A stretch of 22,626 nt of DNA from a virus: IMG/VR virus record IMGVR_UViG_3300045999_010001, positions 1 through 22,626 of that record; one strand, written 5' to 3'. Numbering within the stretch: the first letter of the stretch is position 1; each line of letters opens with the position of its first letter. This document shows positions 2,318 through 22,625 of this stretch, piece after piece. The position numbers were made by a program, and so were the translations under genes. Under the pieces are notes generated by a model. That model worked only from the letters and a program-made list of their open reading frames with translations, did not search any database and was not told the origin of the DNA.

Positions 2318-5300
2318 TCAGAACGTACCTTCATCAACAGTGGCATCAATAGAGCCAGCGGAGAAATTACCACTTGCGTCACGAGCAACAATTGCGCTCG
2401 CAGTGTTGGCGCTAGTAGCAGTAGTGGCACTATTGCTAACCTTGCCAGTAGTAGAAATTGTAGAAAGTTTAGTATCGGCAATGCTGCCAGCAAGCATCGT
2501 ATTAGTGACAGTGCCAGTATCACCAGTGGTGATGACGGTGCCAGTGGTGTCTGGCAGCGTAATCACCTTGTCCGAAGTGGCATCAGCAGCAGCAAGCTGA
2601 ATTTCAAAAGCGTTATCAGTGGCTCCTTCGAAAAGAAGAGAGCCAGTTGTGCCAATGACCACTTCACCAGTGATGGTGCCGCCAGCCCTTTGTAGCGCAC
2701 TGTTCGCTAAGTCATAAGCACTTTTTACCGCAGTGGCAGTAGCAGCAAGTGTCGAACTTGTCGTACTAATGGAATCAGTGAGCTGAACGCTGCCACGCAC
2801 GCTTGTCGTGGCATCAGGAATGGAAATTACTGGAGTGGTCGATCCACTGACGACAGTGAGTGGAGCATTAACACTCACTGAAAGAACAGTGCCGCTTGCT
2901 GGAGTGACCCAGTGAACGCCAGTGCCAAAAGCGGAATTTGCAGTTAACACTTGGCCATTGGCACCCACTGCTTGCTTGATAAGAGTGGTGCCACTGCCAA
3001 CGAGAATATCTCCTCTTGTGTAGGAGTTAAAACTAGTGCCGCCATAGCCAACGGCAAGAATGCCACTCGCTACATTGTTGACATTTCGGCATTCCGTGCT
3101 AACTTCTTCAATCGCTGCCTGCACATTGCTACTTGCAATATTTGCAGCAGGAGAGAATGAAACCTGCGCGGCTGTTTGGGAAAGATAGGTGGAGCTAACA
3201 TCCACTTCAGTCCATGCAGTGCCGTTGCAAAGCAGAATATCTGGCGGTTGAAGAGTGGTTTCAGGAGCAGGTGATGTACCGGTGCCACCACTTGCCACTA
3301 CTACGTAATAACGATTGAATGTGGCCGATGGAGATGGCAGTGGTTGACCAACACTTAAACCAACGGCGGCGCCATCGCTACTTGTGCTAGCTATGACATT
3401 TCCACTTGCATTGTACGTGCCACCAAATATAATTTCCCCGACGCTAATACCAACGGGGTTCCAGACATTTCCGTCCCACAGATAAAGATCTTTTTCTAGC
3501 GGATTGAAGAAGAATTGACCAATAAAATCAGCGATTGGCGGCGATTCGCCAAACTGACTCACTGAATAATTGGCAAGCTTGGAAGCAAGAATAGAATCAT
3601 CTGCAATAAGGCCACTACCAAATGTACCAGTAGTTATTTTCGATGCAGGAAGAGCCGGAATATCATCTGCAACAAGACTGGCCTCCCCTGCGCTGATGTG
3701 TCCCTGTGCATCTACTGTCACTTTGTAATAGACGCCAGATGCAACGCTATTTGCATGGTTAAAGATGCCACTAACAGTGACCAAGCCCGTGCCAGCTTGG
3801 GCTACACCCAGGTCTGCAGTGGTAGCCCTAGGAAGATCGTCGGCCGTGATGGCACGGAAAGTCGGAGCTGCGTCAGCGCTACCACTTGCAGGACCGGCAA
3901 AAAAGCGCGTGGCAACTTGCGTGTTTAACGCAGGAATGATGGACGCGCTAAAAGCATCAGGATAGGAAGTGGTGAAGCTGTAAATAGTATCGCCTGAAAT
4001 TACAGCAGTGGAAAGTCCAGACTGCCGCAGCCATTCGCTTCCTGTCCAGGTGTATTCAATACTAGTGCCAGTATTAAGCCATTGTTGGCCAATGAAAACG
4101 CCGCTACCCACTGGAGTAGAGCCGGCAACAACGGCAGCGGAATTATCTGCCATTTTGGCGCTGGTAACAGCGTCATCACTAATCTTTGCAGTAACAACCG
4201 CTCCATCATTAATTTTTGCTGAAGTGACTGCAGCGTTGGCGATGGTGGCTGCAAATGCTCCTGTGCCAGTGCCAGTGACATCGCCAGAAAGAGTGATAGT
4301 TTGATCGCCAGTGTTGGTACCAGTGGAAGTCCCCGAGAAGGTGCCGTTTTGTGTAGCAAGCGTGCCAAGGCCGAGAGTGCCACGAATGTCTGAAATGCTC
4401 GCATCATCAAGAATTGAACGAGCAGCAGAAGTGCAAGTGATTTCCTCTAAAGTACCACCACTTGCCGAAAAACGACCAAGAATGACATCGCTAGCGCTTG
4501 TAGCTTGAATCTTGCTATAAGAAACTGCGGCGTCAACAATCTTGGCAGTGGTCACGCCACTGTCAATAATCTTCGCAGTGGTTACAGCATTGCTCGCAAG
4601 CTTATCCGCAGTGACATTTGCGTCAGCAATTTTGATCGTAGTAACACCGCTATCAGCAAGCTTTGCAGTGGTAATCGCGCTATTGGCGATGTCTGCAGTG
4701 ACAATAGATTCGGCATCGTAATTGCCGCTTGCTACTGTATTTTGTACTGCCAACGAGCCAAGGCCAAGAGTGGTACGCTGTGCACTTGCATTGGCGTCAT
4801 CAAGAATGGCGCGGCCAGCAGCAGTGATCGCAGAAGTGGCGTAAGTGTCAGAAGCCGTGGTGTAAATAATCTGGCCGGATGCAGTGGTAAGCCCTGCAAT
4901 GGAAGCCAAGGCAGCGTCATAAGCCTGTACGTCAGTACCAATGGCCAAACCAAGGTTTGTGCGGGCTCCAGAAGCAGTAGAAGCTCCTGTGCCACCATCC
5001 GCAATGGCAAGATCCGTGATGCCGCTAATCACGCCGGCATTGATCGTGGCGTAACTAATGGTGCCGCTGCTAAGAACGGCCGTACCACCAGTGATTGCCA
5101 CCCCAGAAGCCGCTTGTACTGCCATCGTGCCCAGGCCTAGCGTCGTGCGCTGAGCACTGGCATCAGCGTCGTCAAGGAGCGCTCTACCGGCCTCTGTCAG
5201 CGTGATGGTTTCTACGTTGCCACTACCAGCAGATGTGCGACCAAGAAGCACTCCGCTTGCTACTTGCTGAATTTTTGCAAACGTAACAGCGTTGTCGGCA

Positions 5301-9666: not shown

Positions 9667-10086
9667 TCAAGTGGTGCCAGTGAGCACCACTGCGTCGAGG
9701 GGACCGTCAATGGTAAAGTTGAACGACACAGTAGTTAGCTCATCGGTGGAAGAAGTAATGCTTGCACTATTGATGTAGGCATCAGCATTGAATGATTGAC
9801 TTGTGCCCACTTCAAAAGTAAGATTTACACGATCACTTTCAGTGACGGCACCAGTCTTGGTGATCCGCTCAAGAAGATTCGTCACGTCAGTAGCGTCGCC
9901 GTTGTAATAAGACAACGTAGCGCTGCCAGTGGCGCTAAACAGCCCAGGAGTGAATGTGTTGGCACTATCTCCGAGTGCCGTGGTGTCCAGCATATTCACG
10001 GATGTATCAAGAGTCCAGTTGCGAACCTTTGACACTTCACTGCCACCAAGACGCAGCTTGCCAGTGCGACCAGTATAAAAAGGCAT
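9667..10086 (-). CDS. Major tail tube protein (lambda gpV-like)
   Basis: This 139-aa protein has the typical siphovirus tube pattern: a first strand GRTGKLRLGG, then KVRNWTLDTSVNMLDTTALG, then FTPGLFSATGSATLSYYNGD, a helix DVTNLLERI, and a C-terminal beta region (SFNADAYINSASITSS, TTVSFNFTIDGPL). Known family members polymerise as hexameric rings around the tape measure protein to form the tail tube. It starts 44 bp after the J-like stop, with a sigma70-like promoter candidate in the gap and no clear Shine-Dalgarno sequence. Its position after the tip gene is unusual for lambda-like order. A further tube gene upstream of the window cannot be excluded, in which case this could be a minor tube form. 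Confidence 0.8.
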   Translation of the reverse strand: MPFYTGRTGKLRLGGSEVSKVRNWTLDTSVNMLDTTALGDSANTFTPGLFSATGSATLSYYNGDATDVTNLLERITKTGAVTESDRVNLTFEVGTSQSFNADAYINSASITSSTDELTTVSFNFTIDGPLDAVVLTGTT

Positions 10087-14885: not shown

Positions 14886-15281
14886 TTAAACGCCAGAATA
14901 ATCGAGTTCGCCAATCAGCCTCACTGTAACAGTGCTTCGCCCATTAAATACGCTTTCTACTTGCGGAGGTTCGGCGTATTCCCACAGAATATTTGCTGGT
15001 GCTTGCACAGCGCCTTTCAGCGCTGTGCTCATGCCAGAAAATACTGCATCAGGAAGCGTAAAGCGCTCATAACTTCCATATTGACCATAGTAATGATCGA
15101 CAATGGCTTTTGTATTGATGTCAGAAATATTTTCAAACTGAAGATCAATGACGTGACCAAATGAGCGGTTGCCAAATACTCGTTTGACAGTTGCCCCTGA
15201 AAGCCCACGATAAACCTTCGTGGGAAATTGCCCTGGAGAATAAGAGCGTCCGGTTGGTCTAATGGAAGGAAATATTGCCAT
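14886..15281 (-). CDS. Minor tail protein in gpM position (131 aa)
   Basis: It directly follows the tape measure gene, its ATG sharing one base with the TAA stop (TAATG at 15279-15283). Its length is close to lambda gpM (about 109 aa), and the sequence has the pattern of small tip proteins: PSIRPTGRSYSPGQFP at the start, a central LQFENISDINTKAIVDHYY, GSYERFTLPDAVF, and a C-terminal WEYAEPPQVESVFNGRS followed by TVRLIGE. Proteins of this type sit at the end of the tape measure and help close the tip. There is no cysteine. The identification rests on gene order and general sequence character. Confidence 0.65.
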   Translation of the reverse strand: MAIFPSIRPTGRSYSPGQFPTKVYRGLSGATVKRVFGNRSFGHVIDLQFENISDINTKAIVDHYYGQYGSYERFTLPDAVFSGMSTALKGAVQAPANILWEYAEPPQVESVFNGRSTVTVRLIGELDYSGV

Positions 15282-18200
15282 TAGCGCATACCAATTTGAG
15301 AGCGAGTGGAGGGACTTTGCTTAATTTTATCGAGCGTCATTGACATGCCCTGTTTAGCGCCTCCAGCAATGGAAGCACGACGAGTTTCTGCCATTGCTTG
15401 CTCTAATTGTTCCCTGCTAACGTATTCTACGCCATTAATCTTAGTTGTTTCAAACTTCATGCTTAGAGAAGGCGCTTGAGGCATGCCTGGGGCGCCGTTG
15501 CCCATGAGATCACGAGCAGAGCGTCCACCAAGCTGCACGGGAATGGAACGACCGTCCGGGAGGGGAACAATAGCTTCGTTGTATTTGCCTTCGCCAATGA
15601 GGCTAAGCGTGGGACCAGTAACAATGCCACCATCCGCAAACGCAGGTGGCGCAAAAGGCATAGATCCGGGTGCTCCACCTCCTCCAAGGCCTCCTGCGTA
15701 TTGTCGTATTCCAGGAAGGCTGTCTGAAATACCTCCTCCGCTACCTGCTGGATTTCCACCGCCTCCGCCAAGGCCCGCAAACATTTTTGCAATACCAATG
15801 GCAATGTAAGTGGCAATCATCTGCGAAGCCGCTTGAGACAAAGCTTGACCCACGCTTTGCAGGAAGTTTGCAAACACTTCCTTGGCAGTCGCAGTGCCAG
15901 TGATTAAACTGGCAACTCCCGTGGTCATTGCCTCGCCAAAAGCATTGCCAATGCCATAGATGGATTGCTTAATGGCTTCATTTCTTTCTTCAAGAAGCGT
16001 AAGTTGATTTTGGAATTCAGCAACACGAGAAGCTTCCTCTTCGCTGGCATCACGCCCAATTGCCTCCTCATACTTTGCGCCAGCGGCCCCAATGAATCCA
16101 GCCGAAAGCCCCATACCTCCCAAGGGAGTGGCGCGAGTGATTTCACCACGCAAAATGGCTTCTGCGCTTGATTGCTCAAGCTTCAGTCTTTCTCTTAACA
16201 GTGGAATGTAAGCTTCAAGCCCCTGAGTGAGCTGCTTAATTTTTTCTACTTGAGAAGCATTGAGCTTATCTGCTTCTTCTTGCTTGATAATTCCATCTTT
16301 TACCAGTTTGTTATTTTGCTCAATTTGAGCATTGGCCATTTGCACGCCAAGAGCAGCTTTTTCTCTGGCTTCGTTAATCTTCTGTTCAGTCTCAAGAGCA
16401 TCTCCAAACGCCCCGGACGAGATTAAGCTAATGCGATTTTGCAAGAGAGTATTTTCAAGCTTTTGCTGCTCTATGGGAATAATGGAAGCAGTATATTCTC
16501 GAATGAGAACATTGAGCTCTTGCTGCGCCTGAATATTTGCATATTTAGTGGCAAGATTTTCTTTTTCTTTTGCATTAATTGCTTCTTGACTTGCAAGCGC
16601 CGAAGCGTAATCCTTCTTCGCTTCTGCTCTTATTCTTGAAGCAGGCACTCCAGCAGGCGCTGCACCAGCCGCTCCAGAGCGCGAGCTGGGATCGAGGTGC
16701 ATTAATTGCGTGCCACGAGGCAGATTCCCGGAAACACCAGCGGCGCCACCGAGATTGCTCACTCCTGACAAGCCAACTGGCACTCGCGTCCCTTGCGGAA
16801 CAAACACATCAATAGCCCCAACTCCACTCGCGTACGATTTATGCGAAGCAATGCCACGACGCACTAACTGCTCCACTTGAGCTTGCTGCATTCCAGTAGT
16901 GAATTTTTGTCCGCTACCCAATTCAGGCTTAACACCTTGCTGCAGAAGCTTCATCACCACTTCAACAGTATCTTGAACTAATGCCTCTCGGTTCATGTTT
17001 TGGAAATGACCGTGCACCCAGCCAGGAGCATTGAATACTCTCCCGGTAGCGCCGAACATAGCGGCACCTCCGCCAACGCCGGAATCTCCCGCTACATAAG
17101 CGCTTGCTTGCGCATCGGTTTCCGCTTTTACGGTTTCAATGCGAGCTTTGCGAATTGCTTCAATTCTGCGAATTTCAATCGCTTGAAGATCGCGTTGAAA
17201 TTTCAGCTCTCTACTCATCCATTCATTTTGACCAGCTTCAAGAAAATCATATTTTGCCTGTTGTAGATTCTTCCAATGGTCAAACTCCATTTCATTTAAA
17301 TTTATAGCTTGCTGAGAGCTAATCTTCATTAAATCGGCTTCGTACTTGCGCTTGTCATCGGCAAGCTTGCGAGCATCTTCCGCAGCCTTTTCGGCTGCTC
17401 GTTTAGCCTTTTCGTCTGACGCTTCCGCTTCAGGACTGATAGCAGAAGGAGTCGGAACATTGAGGCCAATATTTTTTGCCACTTGCTGTGCCGTTGTGAC
17501 AGCCGATTTTGCCTCTTGCAAACTTACTTTTTGCTCTTGCGCAACCCGACCAAAATCTTGCTGGAGTCGTTGCATTTGCTGAGCAGTAGGAAGCTGCATT
17601 TGACGGCGACCACCCCTGATTCCCCCAAGCATGCCTTTGGTAAGTTCAGAGCCCTGCAATGCAGCGCTTTCTTCTGGAGTTAGCGAAACAGAGAATCCCC
17701 CTTCTCGCTGAAGGGCAGTAGATCTAGAACGAAGACTGCGAAGCGTTTCTAATGCTTTTTTATCTGCGCGACTTTGAGCCAAAATATTTTGCATGCTCAT
17801 CTGAGCACCCGCGACATTTCCGCTTGCGGCAGCATCAACAGCAGCTTTTGCTGCATCCCTAGATGATTGTGCTGCTTCTTTAGCCCTATCGCTCATTGTT
17901 GCGAATGCGCCGGCAATAGCAACAATGCCAGCAACAACAGCGCCGATAACAGTTGTCGCAACAAGAGCAGTCAACGCAAGCCTGAGCCCAACCACTTGTA
18001 TTTGCGCTCTAGAAGCGCTGACGCCAAGAATATTAAATGCCCCTGCCAATGCAGTTGCTTGTTGCGTTGCAACACCAAACCCTAAAAGGGCAGAAAGGCC
18101 CCGATAAAGCAAGAGCACTCCCATTAAGGCCATCGCCGCCAAGCGTGCAGTTTGGAATCCAATGTAAAAAGAAGTTACAAGGCTGATAACAGTGGTTAAA

Positions 18201-21200
18201 TTAGTGCCAAGAATATTTAAAACTGGAGACAACACGCCGCCAATTGCCTTTGCCATGTTCATCACAAACGTACCGGCTTTAGCAAGCTCTTGAGTGAACG
18301 ACTGAATATCTTGAGCCTGCTTGGCAATAGCCGGATCTTGCGCCGCTTTCTGGAGAACCTTATATCGAGCCGTTAACGCTGCTACATTTTGTTCAGCCGC
18401 TCTAATGTCGCCTGGGTCAGCACCGCCTGTACGCAAGTCCCCGAGATCCTGCTGCGCTTGTTTGAGCTGCATAAATGTGCGCTCAATCTCGCCAGTAGCG
18501 ATTTGAGCAGACATTGACAATTGCTTCAGTGATCCACCAAGGGGGCCAAGAATTGCTTGCGCTGCAGCGTTCGCTAATGGCGCGAAGCTTTCAAGAGTGC
18601 GCTGAAAATCGCCTTGAACAGTATTCAACAAACCTTGCAATGACTTTCCTGCTGCTTGCGCTCCAGTACCAAAGCGCTTCATTAGTTCATCGGCCACTTT
18701 TGCAAACGTATCCCTAAACTTGCTGCCAACAAACTCTCCATCCTCCATTGCCTTATTGAATTCCTTGACGGACATACCAGCGGCTTTTGCAAAGATTGCA
18801 AGAGCCCCAGGCAGCACATCGCCCAATTGCCCCTTAAGCTCTTCACTCATGATTTGGCCTTTACTTGCCATTTGCCCAAAGGCGTAGATGACGCGCTCCG
18901 CCTTGTCAGGTGTCAGTTGCAATGCAGCAGTGGCTGCGCTGATGCCCGTGAATAGCTTCTCAATGGAGCCAGAATCAAAGCCCGTAGGAGCCATGGAAGC
19001 ATAAAGCCTCGTAAAGCCAGTTCGAGTGGTTTCAAGATTTAAGCCAAATGCCCGTTGAACATTATCAACGTATAAAAGCTCCTTTGCAAACGTGCCGGTG
19101 TCTTGCGTGGCAGTCTGCAGGGCGTTATTGTATTGCTGCTGACTTTTTGCTGCATTAAGAATTTGCCCCGGCAGGCTTTGCACAAAAGCAAGCGCTTTAT
19201 ACGCAGTGCCAAACAGTAAGACTTGCTTAATAGCAAAGCCAAATTCACTCGCAACTTCTCTTAATCCTCCGACCAATGGCAATTGGCTTGCAGTGAATTT
19301 AGCCGAAGTGGCTCGTGCCATTTCAAGCGCAGCACTATATTTTTTGGCACTTTCAAAATACCCTTCTGGCAGTCGCGTAGCTGGCGCAAATGGAACAATT
19401 GCGCCTCCTCTTTGAGGAGGCTGGCCCATCCCTCTCACTCGGTCTGCGCCGCCCGAACCGCCGATGGGTGGTAAAGCTTTTTGCAAAGGCATCCCAGGTA
19501 GTTGAGCACCCTGTCCGAACTCAAAAAATTGACGAGACTGAGCAGGCCTTGTGCCGGGGCCAAACAATCCTTCTTTCAATTGCTGAGAAATTCGCTGGAC
19601 AAACTGACCCGGCCCCTCTTGCGCTGATGGCAGGTCAGAAACACTAATCCTTTCGGGGCGAAATAAATTGAGATATTTAATGACGGTTGGAGCGTTTTGC
19701 GCAAAAGCAATTGCACTAGCCTTAAGTTTTTCAAAAATACTTCCTTTTCCGCTAGCAATAATCCCTTGCACTCCTCCTGTTTCTTGACGTCCAAATGCTC
19801 CGATGTTCGCAAGACTAGATTGCAATTGGCGATCTTTCATCAAGCCAAACGATGATTGCCCAGCAGCGGGCAAAGCTGACACTCTCATTTGAGCGCGTGT
19901 TTGCCTCAGCATCTCACCGGCCTGAGTTCTGGCTTGACGAGCGGCAAAAATAGCAGCTTTTTCTGCATCAATGGCAGCAGCTTTGTTGATCGCCTCTTGG
20001 AAACGCTGCTGCTCTTTCTGTTGCTGGCTCCTGTAAGAACTTTGTCCCGCTGCGGGAAGCATTCTCCCTTGCATTTGCTGACGCAAAGCATTCTGCATGT
20101 CAGTTTTAATGGCCTGCATAATTGCAGACTGGAACTTCCGCTGCTCAATCATTTGAGCAGAAGGCAATGCGGCGATTGGGGCGCGAGCTCCAGCGATTGC
20201 CTTAATTCCTTGCGATGCTTGCTGCATTGAATCAGCAAACATGCGAGTGGCGCGAGGGAGGTAACTATTGGCCGCGAAATTTTCTTGCAACATGCGCTGG
20301 GCATCTTGCATGCTCTTGTAAAAATTTTGAGTGACTATATCTTGCGCACTTACCCTGGGAGCCGCTGACACGCCAGCGGGAAGCATTCTGCCTGCAGATT
20401 GAGCTAATGTTTCGCGCTGAAAAGACAACGCTCCCTCACGGAAAAGCTGACGACGCTGCTGCGTTTGAGCTAACTGAGCCCTCACTTGATCAATTTGTTT
20501 GGCAAGAGATGCCGATTCCTCCATTAGGACCTTGCTTTCAATAGGCCCAGATTTTGCGACAAAAGGAAACGCTCCCCTGCGAGATGCTTGGGGTTGCATC
20601 ATCGCCTGTAATTTTCCTAGTCTTTGCTGAAGACTTTTTTCAAGAGCGTCAAAAGCTCTATTCATAGACGCAATAGCGCCAAGCTCAAAGCCTTTGCCAA
20701 CGTCTTCACCAATTGCCTTAAAGACTTTCGATGGAGAAGCAATGCCAAAGACATCTTTTACAACTTGAATGGTATCGCTTGCTAACCTTGCTGCTGCTTT
20801 TGCAATTTTTGAAGATCCGTTTTTCAATCCTGCAGCGAGACCGTTAACGGCTTCTTCTCCGCTGTCGCTAAATGCCGGGATTAAGGCATCCCTTATCTCG
20901 TCCGCACTAGATTTCGCAAGTCCTTTACTAAGCTTGCCAACACGAAGATTAGCCTCCCGAAACAAGCCATAGATTTTCTGTAATTCAGCCCTGTTTTTAC
21001 CTTCTAATGCTTGTGTTCCCGCCACTCGTCCAGTGATAGCCCGTGACGCTGTGCCACCAATGCCAACAGGAGGTTTGCCTTCTTCTTTGTATTTAACTTT
21101 GATTTCAATCGGAGTGGCTACTGCCCTGCGGAAAGTAGCAAGACTTTGATTAAGTGTCCCTAGATTTTTTCTTGCTGCAATAACCTGACTATCATTAAGC

Positions 21201-21391
21201 TTGATCGTGAGGCTTTTACGACTGAAATATCTATCTAATAAACGATATTGATCTGCAATGCTTTTTTTATTTAGCTGAATATTGAGCTGCAATGGCTGAC
21301 CGCTAAGCTGGGTGCCAATCTTATTTAATTCCTGTTTAAAGAACGCCAGGTCAAGACTTACCTTCAGCTTCAATTCGGCGTCTTGAGCCAT
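15281..21391 (-). CDS. Tail tape measure protein (2036 aa)
   Basis: Known proteins of this type span the tail lumen and set tail length; at about 0.15 nm per residue this one implies a tail near 300 nm. Residues 205-245 carry VFGIASPSKVFKAIGEDVG, a motif typical of tape measure proteins. Residues 250-700 are Gln/Ala-rich helices with recurring LPAAGQSS/LPSAQ linkers. A tape-measure core follows at about 705-940 (ASEFGFAIKQVLLFGTAYKAL, GQMASKGQIMSEELKGQLGD). Hydrophobic segments at 1045-1167 may enter the host membrane. Residues 1457-1570 hold an unusual His/Asp-rich domain (HGH at 1460-1462, His1517, Asp1528, MHLD with His1565). The C-terminus has GNAFGEAMTTGVASLI and FADGGIVTGPTLSLIGEG, a standard tape-measure ending. 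It follows the chaperone fusion by 34 bp; only a weak GAGACAG precedes the ATG. Confidence 0.93.
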   Translation of the reverse strand: MAQDAELKLKVSLDLAFFKQELNKIGTQLSGQPLQLNIQLNKKSIADQYRLLDRYFSRKSLTIKLNDSQVIAARKNLGTLNQSLATFRRAVATPIEIKVKYKEEGKPPVGIGGTASRAITGRVAGTQALEGKNRAELQKIYGLFREANLRVGKLSKGLAKSSADEIRDALIPAFSDSGEEAVNGLAAGLKNGSSKIAKAAARLASDTIQVVKDVFGIASPSKVFKAIGEDVGKGFELGAIASMNRAFDALEKSLQQRLGKLQAMMQPQASRRGAFPFVAKSGPIESKVLMEESASLAKQIDQVRAQLAQTQQRRQLFREGALSFQRETLAQSAGRMLPAGVSAAPRVSAQDIVTQNFYKSMQDAQRMLQENFAANSYLPRATRMFADSMQQASQGIKAIAGARAPIAALPSAQMIEQRKFQSAIMQAIKTDMQNALRQQMQGRMLPAAGQSSYRSQQQKEQQRFQEAINKAAAIDAEKAAIFAARQARTQAGEMLRQTRAQMRVSALPAAGQSSFGLMKDRQLQSSLANIGAFGRQETGGVQGIIASGKGSIFEKLKASAIAFAQNAPTVIKYLNLFRPERISVSDLPSAQEGPGQFVQRISQQLKEGLFGPGTRPAQSRQFFEFGQGAQLPGMPLQKALPPIGGSGGADRVRGMGQPPQRGGAIVPFAPATRLPEGYFESAKKYSAALEMARATSAKFTASQLPLVGGLREVASEFGFAIKQVLLFGTAYKALAFVQSLPGQILNAAKSQQQYNNALQTATQDTGTFAKELLYVDNVQRAFGLNLETTRTGFTRLYASMAPTGFDSGSIEKLFTGISAATAALQLTPDKAERVIYAFGQMASKGQIMSEELKGQLGDVLPGALAIFAKAAGMSVKEFNKAMEDGEFVGSKFRDTFAKVADELMKRFGTGAQAAGKSLQGLLNTVQGDFQRTLESFAPLANAAAQAILGPLGGSLKQLSMSAQIATGEIERTFMQLKQAQQDLGDLRTGGADPGDIRAAEQNVAALTARYKVLQKAAQDPAIAKQAQDIQSFTQELAKAGTFVMNMAKAIGGVLSPVLNILGTNLTTVISLVTSFYIGFQTARLAAMALMGVLLLYRGLSALLGFGVATQQATALAGAFNILGVSASRAQIQVVGLRLALTALVATTVIGAVVAGIVAIAGAFATMSDRAKEAAQSSRDAAKAAVDAAASGNVAGAQMSMQNILAQSRADKKALETLRSLRSRSTALQREGGFSVSLTPEESAALQGSELTKGMLGGIRGGRRQMQLPTAQQMQRLQQDFGRVAQEQKVSLQEAKSAVTTAQQVAKNIGLNVPTPSAISPEAEASDEKAKRAAEKAAEDARKLADDKRKYEADLMKISSQQAINLNEMEFDHWKNLQQAKYDFLEAGQNEWMSRELKFQRDLQAIEIRRIEAIRKARIETVKAETDAQASAYVAGDSGVGGGAAMFGATGRVFNAPGWVHGHFQNMNREALVQDTVEVVMKLLQQGVKPELGSGQKFTTGMQQAQVEQLVRRGIASHKSYASGVGAIDVFVPQGTRVPVGLSGVSNLGGAAGVSGNLPRGTQLMHLDPSSRSGAAGAAPAGVPASRIRAEAKKDYASALASQEAINAKEKENLATKYANIQAQQELNVLIREYTASIIPIEQQKLENTLLQNRISLISSGAFGDALETEQKINEAREKAALGVQMANAQIEQNNKLVKDGIIKQEEADKLNASQVEKIKQLTQGLEAYIPLLRERLKLEQSSAEAILRGEITRATPLGGMGLSAGFIGAAGAKYEEAIGRDASEEEASRVAEFQNQLTLLEERNEAIKQSIYGIGNAFGEAMTTGVASLITGTATAKEVFANFLQSVGQALSQAASQMIATYIAIGIAKMFAGLGGGGGNPAGSGGGISDSLPGIRQYAGGLGGGGAPGSMPFAPPAFADGGIVTGPTLSLIGEGKYNEAIVPLPDGRSIPVQLGGRSARDLMGNGAPGMPQAPSLSMKFETTKINGVEYVSREQLEQAMAETRRASIAGGAKQGMSMTLDKIKQSPSTRSQIGMR

Positions 21392-21425: not shown

Positions 21426-22399
21426 TCATTGTTCTTGGTTGCGCCCAGCAAAGGCCTTCATTTCATCAGCAAGCAATGCAATAACACGCCCGTCCATTCT
21501 TCTCGTTTTCATTAAACGCTGCAGAACAATCAAGCTTGCGTCCGTCACGCCATCTTCTTTCTTAAGTTGTTTGGTATCAAACGGCAAGAAATCCTCAGGC
21601 TTCACTTTGCTCTTTCTTCCCGCCATCATTCCCGCTGCCATTGTGCCAAGCTTGGCTACGGCAACACTCGCAACATTGTATTTTGCAATGTCATGACGAT
21701 CAAGATATTTCAGCGCACGCTTAACGTCATCAAGCTTCTGGAGGCCAAAATTTTTAGCACTCCATCGCTCGTCCTTAAAGTCAGAAGCTGAGAGCCTGAA
21801 ATAGATTTCGTTCCAATCTGTCAGGCTCTTAAGCTGCTTCCTGGCTTGCGCTTCAAGCTTTTCTGCTACTGAGGAGAATTCCTCTTCACTGCTTTTTTTG
21901 CTTCTACAGCCTCCTGCGTCTCAGCGTTTTGCTCTTCAGCAATAAATTCAACCACTTTTGCAATGGCTTTACGAGGAAGATTCTTAGTGTCTTCGATCTC
22001 CCAATCGCCAAGATCTTGCCATTCGCCATCAATGAGGCCCTGTCCACGAGAACGGATGAAGGCAGTGACCATGCGAGCGTTGGTGGCTTCCACCGACGAT
22101 CCGCTGGTGATCATGCTCAGTGTCTCCTCTGTGAACTCAGAGAGCAGCTCGGCTTCTGAAATGGAGCCGCCGCCCTGCAGCAGTGCAAAGGCCTCATCTA
22201 GAGGAATCTCACGCGAGGCAGCAATGCGCTTTGCGAGCTGAACGGCACGAATGGTAGCTTGGCTTTGCAGCTTACTGATCTCCTCCTGTTCAATGGATTC
22301 AGCAACAAGCCAACTGCCATATTTCTTTAGGCGAATTTCAGGCAGCAGCTCGAAATAGCCTTCAGTCTTGGTTTGAACTAGGAAGCTGTATTTGCTCAT
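21426..22399 (-). CDS. Tail assembly chaperone -1 frameshift fusion (lambda gpGT-like), 324 aa
   Basis: Residues 1-169 are shared with the short chaperone; the ribosome then slips back one base on A7 at 21893-21899 and continues in the -1 frame for 155 residues to TGA at 21426-21428. That frame is open from 21920 to 21426 yet has no ATG before 21641, so most of it can be made only by frameshifting. The extension reads SSEEEFSSVAEKLEAQARK...DWNEIYFRLSASDFKDERW and ends in a basic helical part (RRMDGRVIALLADEMKAF). In lambda and many siphoviruses the long form binds both tape measure and tube protein during assembly, at a low fixed ratio to the short form. Its place directly before the tape measure gene fits this. 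Confidence 0.85.
21866..22399 (-). CDS. Tail assembly chaperone, short form (lambda gpG-like), 177 aa
   Basis: This is the zero-frame product of the chaperone gene, starting MSKYSFLVQTKTEGYF and ending AKKAVKRNSPQ at TAG 21866-21868. Position directly before the tape measure gene, helical acidic content (IEQEEISKLQSQATIRAV, LSEFTEETLSMI) and the slippery site near its 3' end all fit a G-type chaperone, known to keep the tape measure soluble before the tube forms. The ATG at 22399 lies within the end of the preceding gene (38-bp overlap) and lacks a good ribosome site, so coupled initiation is likely. Direct sequence similarity to characterised chaperones could not be tested; these proteins diverge strongly. 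Confidence 0.82.
   Translation of the reverse strand: MSKYSFLVQTKTEGYFELLPEIRLKKYGSWLVAESIEQEEISKLQSQATIRAVQLAKRIAASREIPLDEAFALLQGGGSISEAELLSEFTEETLSMITSGSSVEATNARMVTAFIRSRGQGLIDGEWQDLGDWEIEDTKNLPRKAIAKVVEFIAEEQNAETQEAVEAKKAVKRNSPQ
21871..21915 (-). promoter_or_regulatory. Programmed -1 ribosomal frameshift site
   Basis: In mRNA order: AGGAGG (21910-21915), 10 bases, the slippery A AAA AAA read in zero frame as GCA-AAA-AAA (A7 at 21893-21899), 8 bases (GCAGUGAA), then the hairpin GAGGA-AUUC-UCCUC (21871-21884), with the zero-frame TAG just beyond. The layout matches the well-known E. coli dnaX cassette, in which an internal Shine-Dalgarno about 10 bases upstream and a downstream hairpin stimulate slippage. 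All parts are visible in the sequence; the efficiency is unknown. Confidence 0.88.
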
Positions 22400-22625
22400 G
22401 ATCGAGAATGTTTAACAATGCGTTGAACACCTTCACTCGCTCGTGAGAAGAGCGGAATTCTGGTGGCACTTCAATCAGCATTGAATGATTTTCGTTGCTT
22501 ATTCTAATGGTCGTTTCCCTGCAAGAAACAAGACAAAGGATGCCCACTTCCAAAGCAGCGCCATCAATTAAGCAATTAATGGCATGCACTGTATTGTCAG
22601 CGCTCCATAAATAGTCAATTCTCAT
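22362..22625 (-). CDS. Unknown protein (87 aa), start at window edge
   Basis: The reading frame runs from ATG at 22623-22625 to TGA at 22362-22364. Because only one base precedes the ATG, the true start may lie outside. I do not recognise the family. It has a mixed hydrophobic stretch (NCLIDGAALEVGILCLVSC) and an acidic tail (LLNILDHEQIQLPSS). It overlaps the chaperone gene by 38 bp in another frame, as in coupled phage genes. In lambda-like order the tube gene would sit here; this protein does not look like one. Confidence 0.55.
   Translation of the reverse strand: MRIDYLWSADNTVHAINCLIDGAALEVGILCLVSCRETTIRISNENHSMLIEVPPEFRSSHERVKVFNALLNILDHEQIQLPSSNQD

Follow-up and report, generated by a model that had tools for sequence, protein, structure and literature searches.

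Frameshifting by -1 in the tail chaperone genes of tailed phages is textbook knowledge, so that the event itself is no surprise when a candidate gene of this kind is met in viral DNA. In PMC10885494, 2397 joined tail assembly chaperone genes are counted among 3679 SEA-PHAGES genomes. The locus described here, part of a 22,626-nt stretch of viral DNA that was analysed at its full length (the window), raises the question of whether ribosomes change frame at it and, if so, which sequence elements bring this about. An initial annotation, which gave no strand, had described an internal AGGAGG, a 10-nt gap, an in-phase A7 heptamer, an 8-nt spacer and a 5-bp hairpin in succession. These elements were recovered exactly as claimed, and the whole slip-site feature lies on the minus strand of the window, as follows.

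22362..22625, minus strand: 87-aa open reading frame upstream of G, overlapping the G start by 38 nt
22399..21866, minus strand: putative G-like tail assembly chaperone, 0-frame open reading frame of 177 aa, with an ATG start and its stop codon at 21868-21866
21915-21910, minus strand: internal Shine-Dalgarno-like AGGAGG, 10 nt 5' of the heptamer, within codons Q162 and E163
21899-21893, minus strand: slippery heptamer A_AAA_AAA in the 0-frame register, codons GCA AAA AAA (residues 167-169)
21884-21871, minus strand: hairpin GAGGA-ATTC-TCCTC, 5 bp, 14 nt, -5.1 kcal/mol, beginning 8 nt after A7
21429..21893, minus strand: predicted T-like -1 extension of 155 codons, with its stop codon at 21428-21426
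15281..21391, minus strand: tape measure protein, 2036 aa, the next gene downstream (phrog_2335, E=1.8e-60)

The -1 frame is open from 21920 to the stop codon at 21428-21426, which leaves 155 codons past the shift, and the predicted fusion comprises 169 + 155 = 324 aa, its first 169 residues being common to the 177-aa product. The open frame and both predicted product sizes given in the initial annotation were thereby confirmed from the sequence.

The slippery heptamer and the -1 frame among relatives

Relatives were collected by scanning viral contigs with the G protein, the G protein of phage S-CBS4, two G alignments and a T alignment as queries; the best 80 of 148, 301, 87, 291 and 277 confirmed stretches, respectively, were kept, so that distant relatives are undersampled. 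One scan of genome contigs, which returned a single locus apparently on the same contig as L228, and S-CBS4 itself were added. The peptide patterns given to the scans exclude the slip site. With the window itself (L001) excluded, 375 of the 376 loci were counted, in all of which the gene was readable, and they reduce to 151 distinct sequences; these relatives are akin to each other, and counts made on them are therefore not independent. Most controls were run on 36 representatives sharing less than 90% identity, and L003, whose G protein is identical to that of the window, served as the reference for pairwise tests. The only named relative among the matches listed is Synechococcus phage S-CBS4, on which the description of the family as cyanophage-like is based.

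An in-phase slippery heptamer is present at the junction in all 151 listed distinct relatives, in the form AAAAAAA in 135, AAAAAAG in 9, AAAAAAC in 1 and GGGAAAA in 6. Six listed relatives possess a second in-phase heptamer, which in four of them overlaps A7, in the form GGGAAAAAAA. This run, seen at 3498-3507 of L188 and likewise in L189, L190 and L192, consists of two overlapping in-phase heptamers, and the tandem form is possibly an evolutionary intermediate between the A7 and GGGAAAA types. Across nine genes of the window, 14 in-phase X_XXY_YYZ heptamers were found; A7 is among them only at the slip site, which is also the only one of the 14 to be followed by at least 40 open -1 codons, a combination beyond mere chance. 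A second A7 occurs at 21268-21262 (minus strand), near the start of the tape measure gene; its phase does not fit X_XXY_YYZ.

Two readings of this pattern do without a ribosomal slip at the heptamer. A single gene split by an indel, whether a sequencing error or a true lesion, would look broken in the same manner, and the split itself is all that speaks for it; all 151 listed distinct sequences, however, are split alike, in one phase and at heptamers of one kind, which contradicts this reading and leaves it a negligible probability. A homopolymer such as A7 could also induce transcriptional slippage, in which an A is added to some mRNAs and ribosomes are thereby brought into the -1 frame; transcriptional slippage is named, in PMC4066793, as a possible reason for the avoidance of AAAAAAA in all frames in E. 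coli. This reading is at odds with the GGGAAAA of 6 and the AAAAAAG or AAAAAAC of 10 of the 151 listed relatives and with the X_XXY_YYZ phase, which is always kept and for which slippage of RNA polymerase would have no need. The conserved internal Shine-Dalgarno (SD) sequence described below likewise points to ribosomes, and we regard transcriptional slippage as improbable.

The -1 frame carries the marks of a selected coding sequence. The extension is 153-157 codons long in all 140 listed relatives that hold its end, the -1 stop being absent from the DNA examined in the other 11 of the 151. We compared extension codons 20-155 with those of L003 in 11 pairs, nine of which gave estimates. L348 and L240 were without dS, and three dS estimates in all failed. 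Values of dN/dS were 0-0.049 in seven window-type pairs (L005, L015, L038, L040, L041, L073 and L376), 0.095 for S-CBS4, where dS is saturated as in distant pairs generally, and 0.135, the highest of the nine, for L191. As judged from these comparisons, the -1 extension is a conserved, selected protein. The MS[KR]YSFL N-terminus and much of the remaining G sequence are also conserved across the aligned relatives; the 0-frame tail past the heptamer varies between clades in sequence and in length (6 to 22 residues).

A conserved T-like protein could nevertheless arise from a start of its own in the -1 frame, with AGGAGG as its ribosome binding site. The extension had initially been described as having no early start of its own, which is accurate for the window, where no ATG, GTG or TTG of the extension precedes the ATG at 21641, which is 84 codons past the shift and inside the conserved part, but not for the family: 50 of 135 complete listed relatives have such a codon no more than 23 codons after the shift, the first one being an ATG at extension codon 11 in 23, a TTG at codon 23 in 20 and other codons in 7 (27 in addition to the codon-11 ATGs). 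The initial annotation had also held that homologues with their own -1 start would speak against frameshifting, and the 23 with an ATG at codon 11 are formally of that kind. These ATGs have no SD (0 to -2.2 kcal/mol), which is alone no argument against their use since the G starts are equally devoid of one (median 0) and SD-less starts are thus possible in these phages; in the S-CBS4 annotation, moreover, gp033 is a separate gene with an internal start. AGGAGG was, however, rejected as the binding site of an internal start, as a start codon (ATG, GTG or TTG) follows it at 4-12 nt in 0 of the 69 loci that carry AGGAGG here, and separate initiation leaves the universal in-phase heptamer unexplained. 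We consider separate initiation highly improbable. Programmed -1 frameshifting at A7, as initially proposed, is strongly supported by the in-phase heptamer of every listed relative and by selection on the extension, as far as comparison of sequences can tell.

Internal Shine-Dalgarno sequence and downstream hairpin

If ribosomes do slip at A7, the upstream AGGAGG is the first candidate for a stimulator. We counted synonymous parsimony steps in the 63 of 135 complete relatives that are at least 80% identical to L003 (the window clade). The two codons that contain AGGAGG, Q162 and E163, show 0 and 1 steps, against 15.9 expected for the pair, and the averages for conserved Q and E codons in the rest of the fusion gene are 8.75 and 7.18 steps. 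Of the 102 two-codon windows scored, which span G codon 6 to the slip site, codons 2-5 being excluded, none is as low as the AGGAGG pair (0.06 of expectation; next 0.42). There are two counterpoints: one of the 12 other Q codons is likewise at 0 synonymous steps, and G codons 2-5, at 0.07-0.10 of expectation, have roughly as few synonymous changes as the AGGAGG pair, which may be due to their overlap with the upstream open reading frame. At AGGAGG the 0 frame is the only known coding frame, and protein constraint is therefore no explanation for its synonymous quiet.

Pairing with the anti-SD gives a similar picture across the family. Energies were calculated with an assumed 9-nt 16S rRNA tail. 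Averaged over the 36 representatives, pairing within +/-330 nt peaks at this place (-5.9; next -5.3 at +276), 23 of the 36 reach -8 kcal/mol and 29 reach -6 kcal/mol upstream of the slip site, and in 28 the slip-site SD ranks in the top 5% of positions along its gene. The frameshift-signal rule of Sharma et al. 2014 (PMC4066793) places an SD 6-17 nt upstream; it is satisfied by the window, by 141 of 151 listed relatives and by 32 of 36 representatives, compared with 1596 of 9744 control positions (16%). The relatives that fail it are 7 of 36 of the L240 type, 2 of 72 of the window type and 1 of 3 of the L183 type. For -1 shifts, PMC5009743 gives a distance of 9-14 nt. Of the 72 window-type relatives, 67 have AGGAGG at a distance of exactly 10 nt; the S-CBS4 group has GGAGG 16 nt upstream of the slip site (14 nt if measured from AGGTG), L208 has GGAGG more than 20 nt away, and SD spacing across the family ranges from about 7 to more than 20 nt. 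Synonymous-site constraint and family-wide SD enrichment together bear out the proposal that AGGAGG is a selected element; it looks separately selected, and the SD is probably the stimulator of frameshifting. Conservation of the three elements in related phages, initially suggested as a check, is seen for the heptamer and the SD and not, at the level of the family, for the spacing or the hairpin.

The internal SD also stands out against the starts of genes. At none of 10 gene starts in the window (for example 22399, 21391, 15281 and 13988, minus strand) does anti-SD pairing attain -5 kcal/mol, and in S-CBS4 17 of 80 starts reach -6 kcal/mol, against 4.2% of 400 random positions; both counts take starts as called or annotated, some of which may be wrong. 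The coding strand of the window nonetheless contains 12 copies of AGGAGG. These genomes seem to use SD sequences sparingly for initiation. As the G start has no SD, it may be translationally coupled to the upstream 87-aa open reading frame, and an upstream frame of equal length and overlap is present in L003 (3775-4038).

Much less can be said for the hairpin. Its 14-mer is matched in folding energy by 22 of 200 shuffles (z -1.82), and in 40- and 63-nt contexts it is unremarkable (z -0.26 and +0.21). The hairpin rule of PMC4066793 requires at least 17 nt and at least 7.6 kcal/mol, starting 4-10 nt downstream. We applied it to lengths of 17-60 nt, compared with 17-140 nt in PMC4066793, and with 25 random control positions per representative. 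With lengths up to 60 nt, neither the window nor any of the 72 window-type relatives satisfies the rule, and over the family there is no enrichment, since 9 of 36 representatives and 245 of 900 control positions (27%) comply with it. Covariation of the hairpin was not significant in either clade tested: in 18 window-type rows, which comprise the window together with 17 of its 72 distinct relatives, 474-500 of 500 shuffles reach the observed measures, and in 19 S-CBS4-type rows (12 distinct) 125-457 of 500 do so. The description of a complete dnaX-like cassette with all three elements so exactly spaced was therefore overstated, the hairpin being too short and weak and neither it nor the spacing extending to the whole family.

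It is possible to argue for a full three-part dnaX-like cassette with the hairpin as an important stimulator. All five pairs are formed in 66 of 72 window-type relatives, the arms have undergone 6 parsimony steps over 10 nt compared with 51 over the 12 nt of spacer plus loop (Mann-Whitney p=0.003), mean folding energy over the 36 representatives dips where windows begin 9-15 nt past the heptamer's first base, and some other clades have stronger hairpins of their own (L164, L174). Set against this are the failures under the size and energy rule and in the covariation test, as well as mean folding that is deeper elsewhere in the gene than at the dip; the hairpin stretch is coded in two frames, so that amino-acid constraint can explain the quiet arms. 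We find the three-part cassette doubtful, and the 5-bp hairpin is possibly a minor, clade-specific contributor at most. The L164 and L174 loci, which belong to the S-CBS4 group, contain perfect 8-bp stems with an AGGAA loop 11 nt after A7 (3516-3536 and 1263-1283, respectively), and their 30-nt windows, at -17.8 and -15.2 kcal/mol, fold far more strongly than the hairpin of the window. A stem swap between the two was considered as covariation and discarded, as it reduces to one doubly changed pair.

It is tempting to speculate, at slightly less than even odds, that these phages, whose genes seldom start by SD pairing, form a tail-chaperone frameshift family which relies on the internal SD and not on RNA structure, and in which the anti-SD is used less for initiation than for recoding. 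Comparison shows that heptamer and phase are kept, that the -1 protein is under selection and that AGGAGG is constrained at the nucleotide level; beyond this we infer that the slip is ribosomal, that AGGAGG acts via the anti-SD, that the product has a chaperone role and that efficiency is in the low-percent range. A majority of ribosomes would read the 0 frame to the stop at 21868 and yield the 177-aa G-like protein. In a fraction, AGGAGG would pair with the anti-SD of 16S rRNA and so hold the ribosome when A_AAA_AAA occupies the P and A sites; these ribosomes would slip backward by one base, both lysyl-tRNAs re-pairing on AAA, before reading 155 further codons to yield the 324-aa GT-like fusion. 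By analogy with lambda, the tape measure protein may be coated by G, with the tail tube protein brought in by the T part.

Probable identity of the gene

The name of the gene depends largely on its neighbours. In L003 the major head protein gene is followed by small genes, then by a weak match to a major tail protein (E=4.7e-4) and three open reading frames, and after these by G/T and the tape measure gene; the position between the major tail protein and tape measure genes is seen via L003, as the window ends before the major tail protein gene. Sequence gives weaker hints. The extension has weak matches to Phage_tail_T (PF06223) in 15 of 37 members (best E 0.0056), that of the window falling below the curated cut-off, and to phrog_337 (tail protein) in 18 of 37 (best E 0.0025). 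G members gave no match to any named tail family, hhalign profile comparison with lambda G and T gave none, and sequence searches against solved structures were equally negative. The AlphaFold models of G and T are poor (mean pLDDT 63.7 and 64.2), and fold searches with the poor G model gave a best PDB E of 2.7 and a best viral E of 1.5e-3, the latter to an unnamed protein. In the initial annotation the gene had been called a tail chaperone; gene order supports that identity, and homology to known chaperones is at most weakly indicated. A 139-aa open reading frame at 9667-10086 (minus strand), downstream of a tail fibre J-like gene, matches phrog_10528 and phrog_1407, both major tail protein families, and represents a tail-tube-like domain additional to the probable major tail protein that precedes G in L003.

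The locus is placed and apparently decoded like a G/GT chaperone. We estimate a probability of about 0.9, on the sequence evidence, that it encodes a tail assembly chaperone of the G/GT type and that programmed -1 ribosomal frameshifting takes place in its decoding. Overall, the locus would represent a new family of a known kind, in which frameshifting is very probable from sequence.

Comparison with known frameshifting systems

Among the papers listed on cyanophages and on SD-stimulated tail chaperone shifts, in a collection with few subscription journals, none was seen to describe this family, as judged from titles and the beginnings of abstracts. The natural variants of SD spacing and of the heptamer (A7, A6G, A6C and GGGAAAA), together with the tandem GGGAAAAAAA form, constitute a comparative set for the tuning of the G:GT ratio.

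The E. coli dnaX signal shares with the locus the order of SD, about 10 nt, A6-type heptamer and stem-loop, with the SD within the 9-14 nt given in PMC5009743. It differs in its heptamer (A_AAA_AAG, compared with A_AAA_AAA here), in its stem (11 bp according to PMC5009743, compared with 5 bp) and in the outcome, which is a truncated product in dnaX and a long fusion here; homology is not implied. Frameshift signals of the IS3 family likewise combine an A6-type heptamer with an upstream SD, and the SD rule that holds here comes from PMC4066793, in which 3 of 13 clusters of IS and prophage sequences have conserved SDs; unlike those signals, the window does not conform to the hairpin rule of that source.

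The lambda G/GT gene is alike in lying directly upstream of the tape measure gene and in shifting by -1 near the end of G. Sizes are comparable (140 aa for lambda G and 177 aa here; -1 extensions of 144 and 155 codons), and the lambda heptamer GGGAAAG resembles the GGGAAAA of six relatives, whereas the window itself has A7. Three open reading frames separate the likely major tail protein gene from G in L003, and none does so in lambda. Lambda was also the one SD control with a readable shift site, the shift site of HK97, intended as a second control, having escaped detection as a standard heptamer by our scan. The lambda shift site does not satisfy the SD rule (best pairing -2.5), in contrast to the strong, conserved internal SD found here.

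The closest comparison is with gp032/gp033 of S-CBS4, which is homologous (61% identity over 173 residues) and has an in-phase A7 and a -1 extension of 155 codons; unlike the window, it has GGAGG at 16 nt and is devoid of the GAGGA/TCCTC hairpin. In this genome (L002, 5001-5971) gp032 and gp033 are annotated as two hypothetical proteins. The annotation looks mistaken, in that gp032 is given a start 69 nt too far downstream and gp033 covers an inner portion of the -1 extension. A large family with a measurable, separately selected SD would thus have gone unannotated as frameshifted in its one named phage record.
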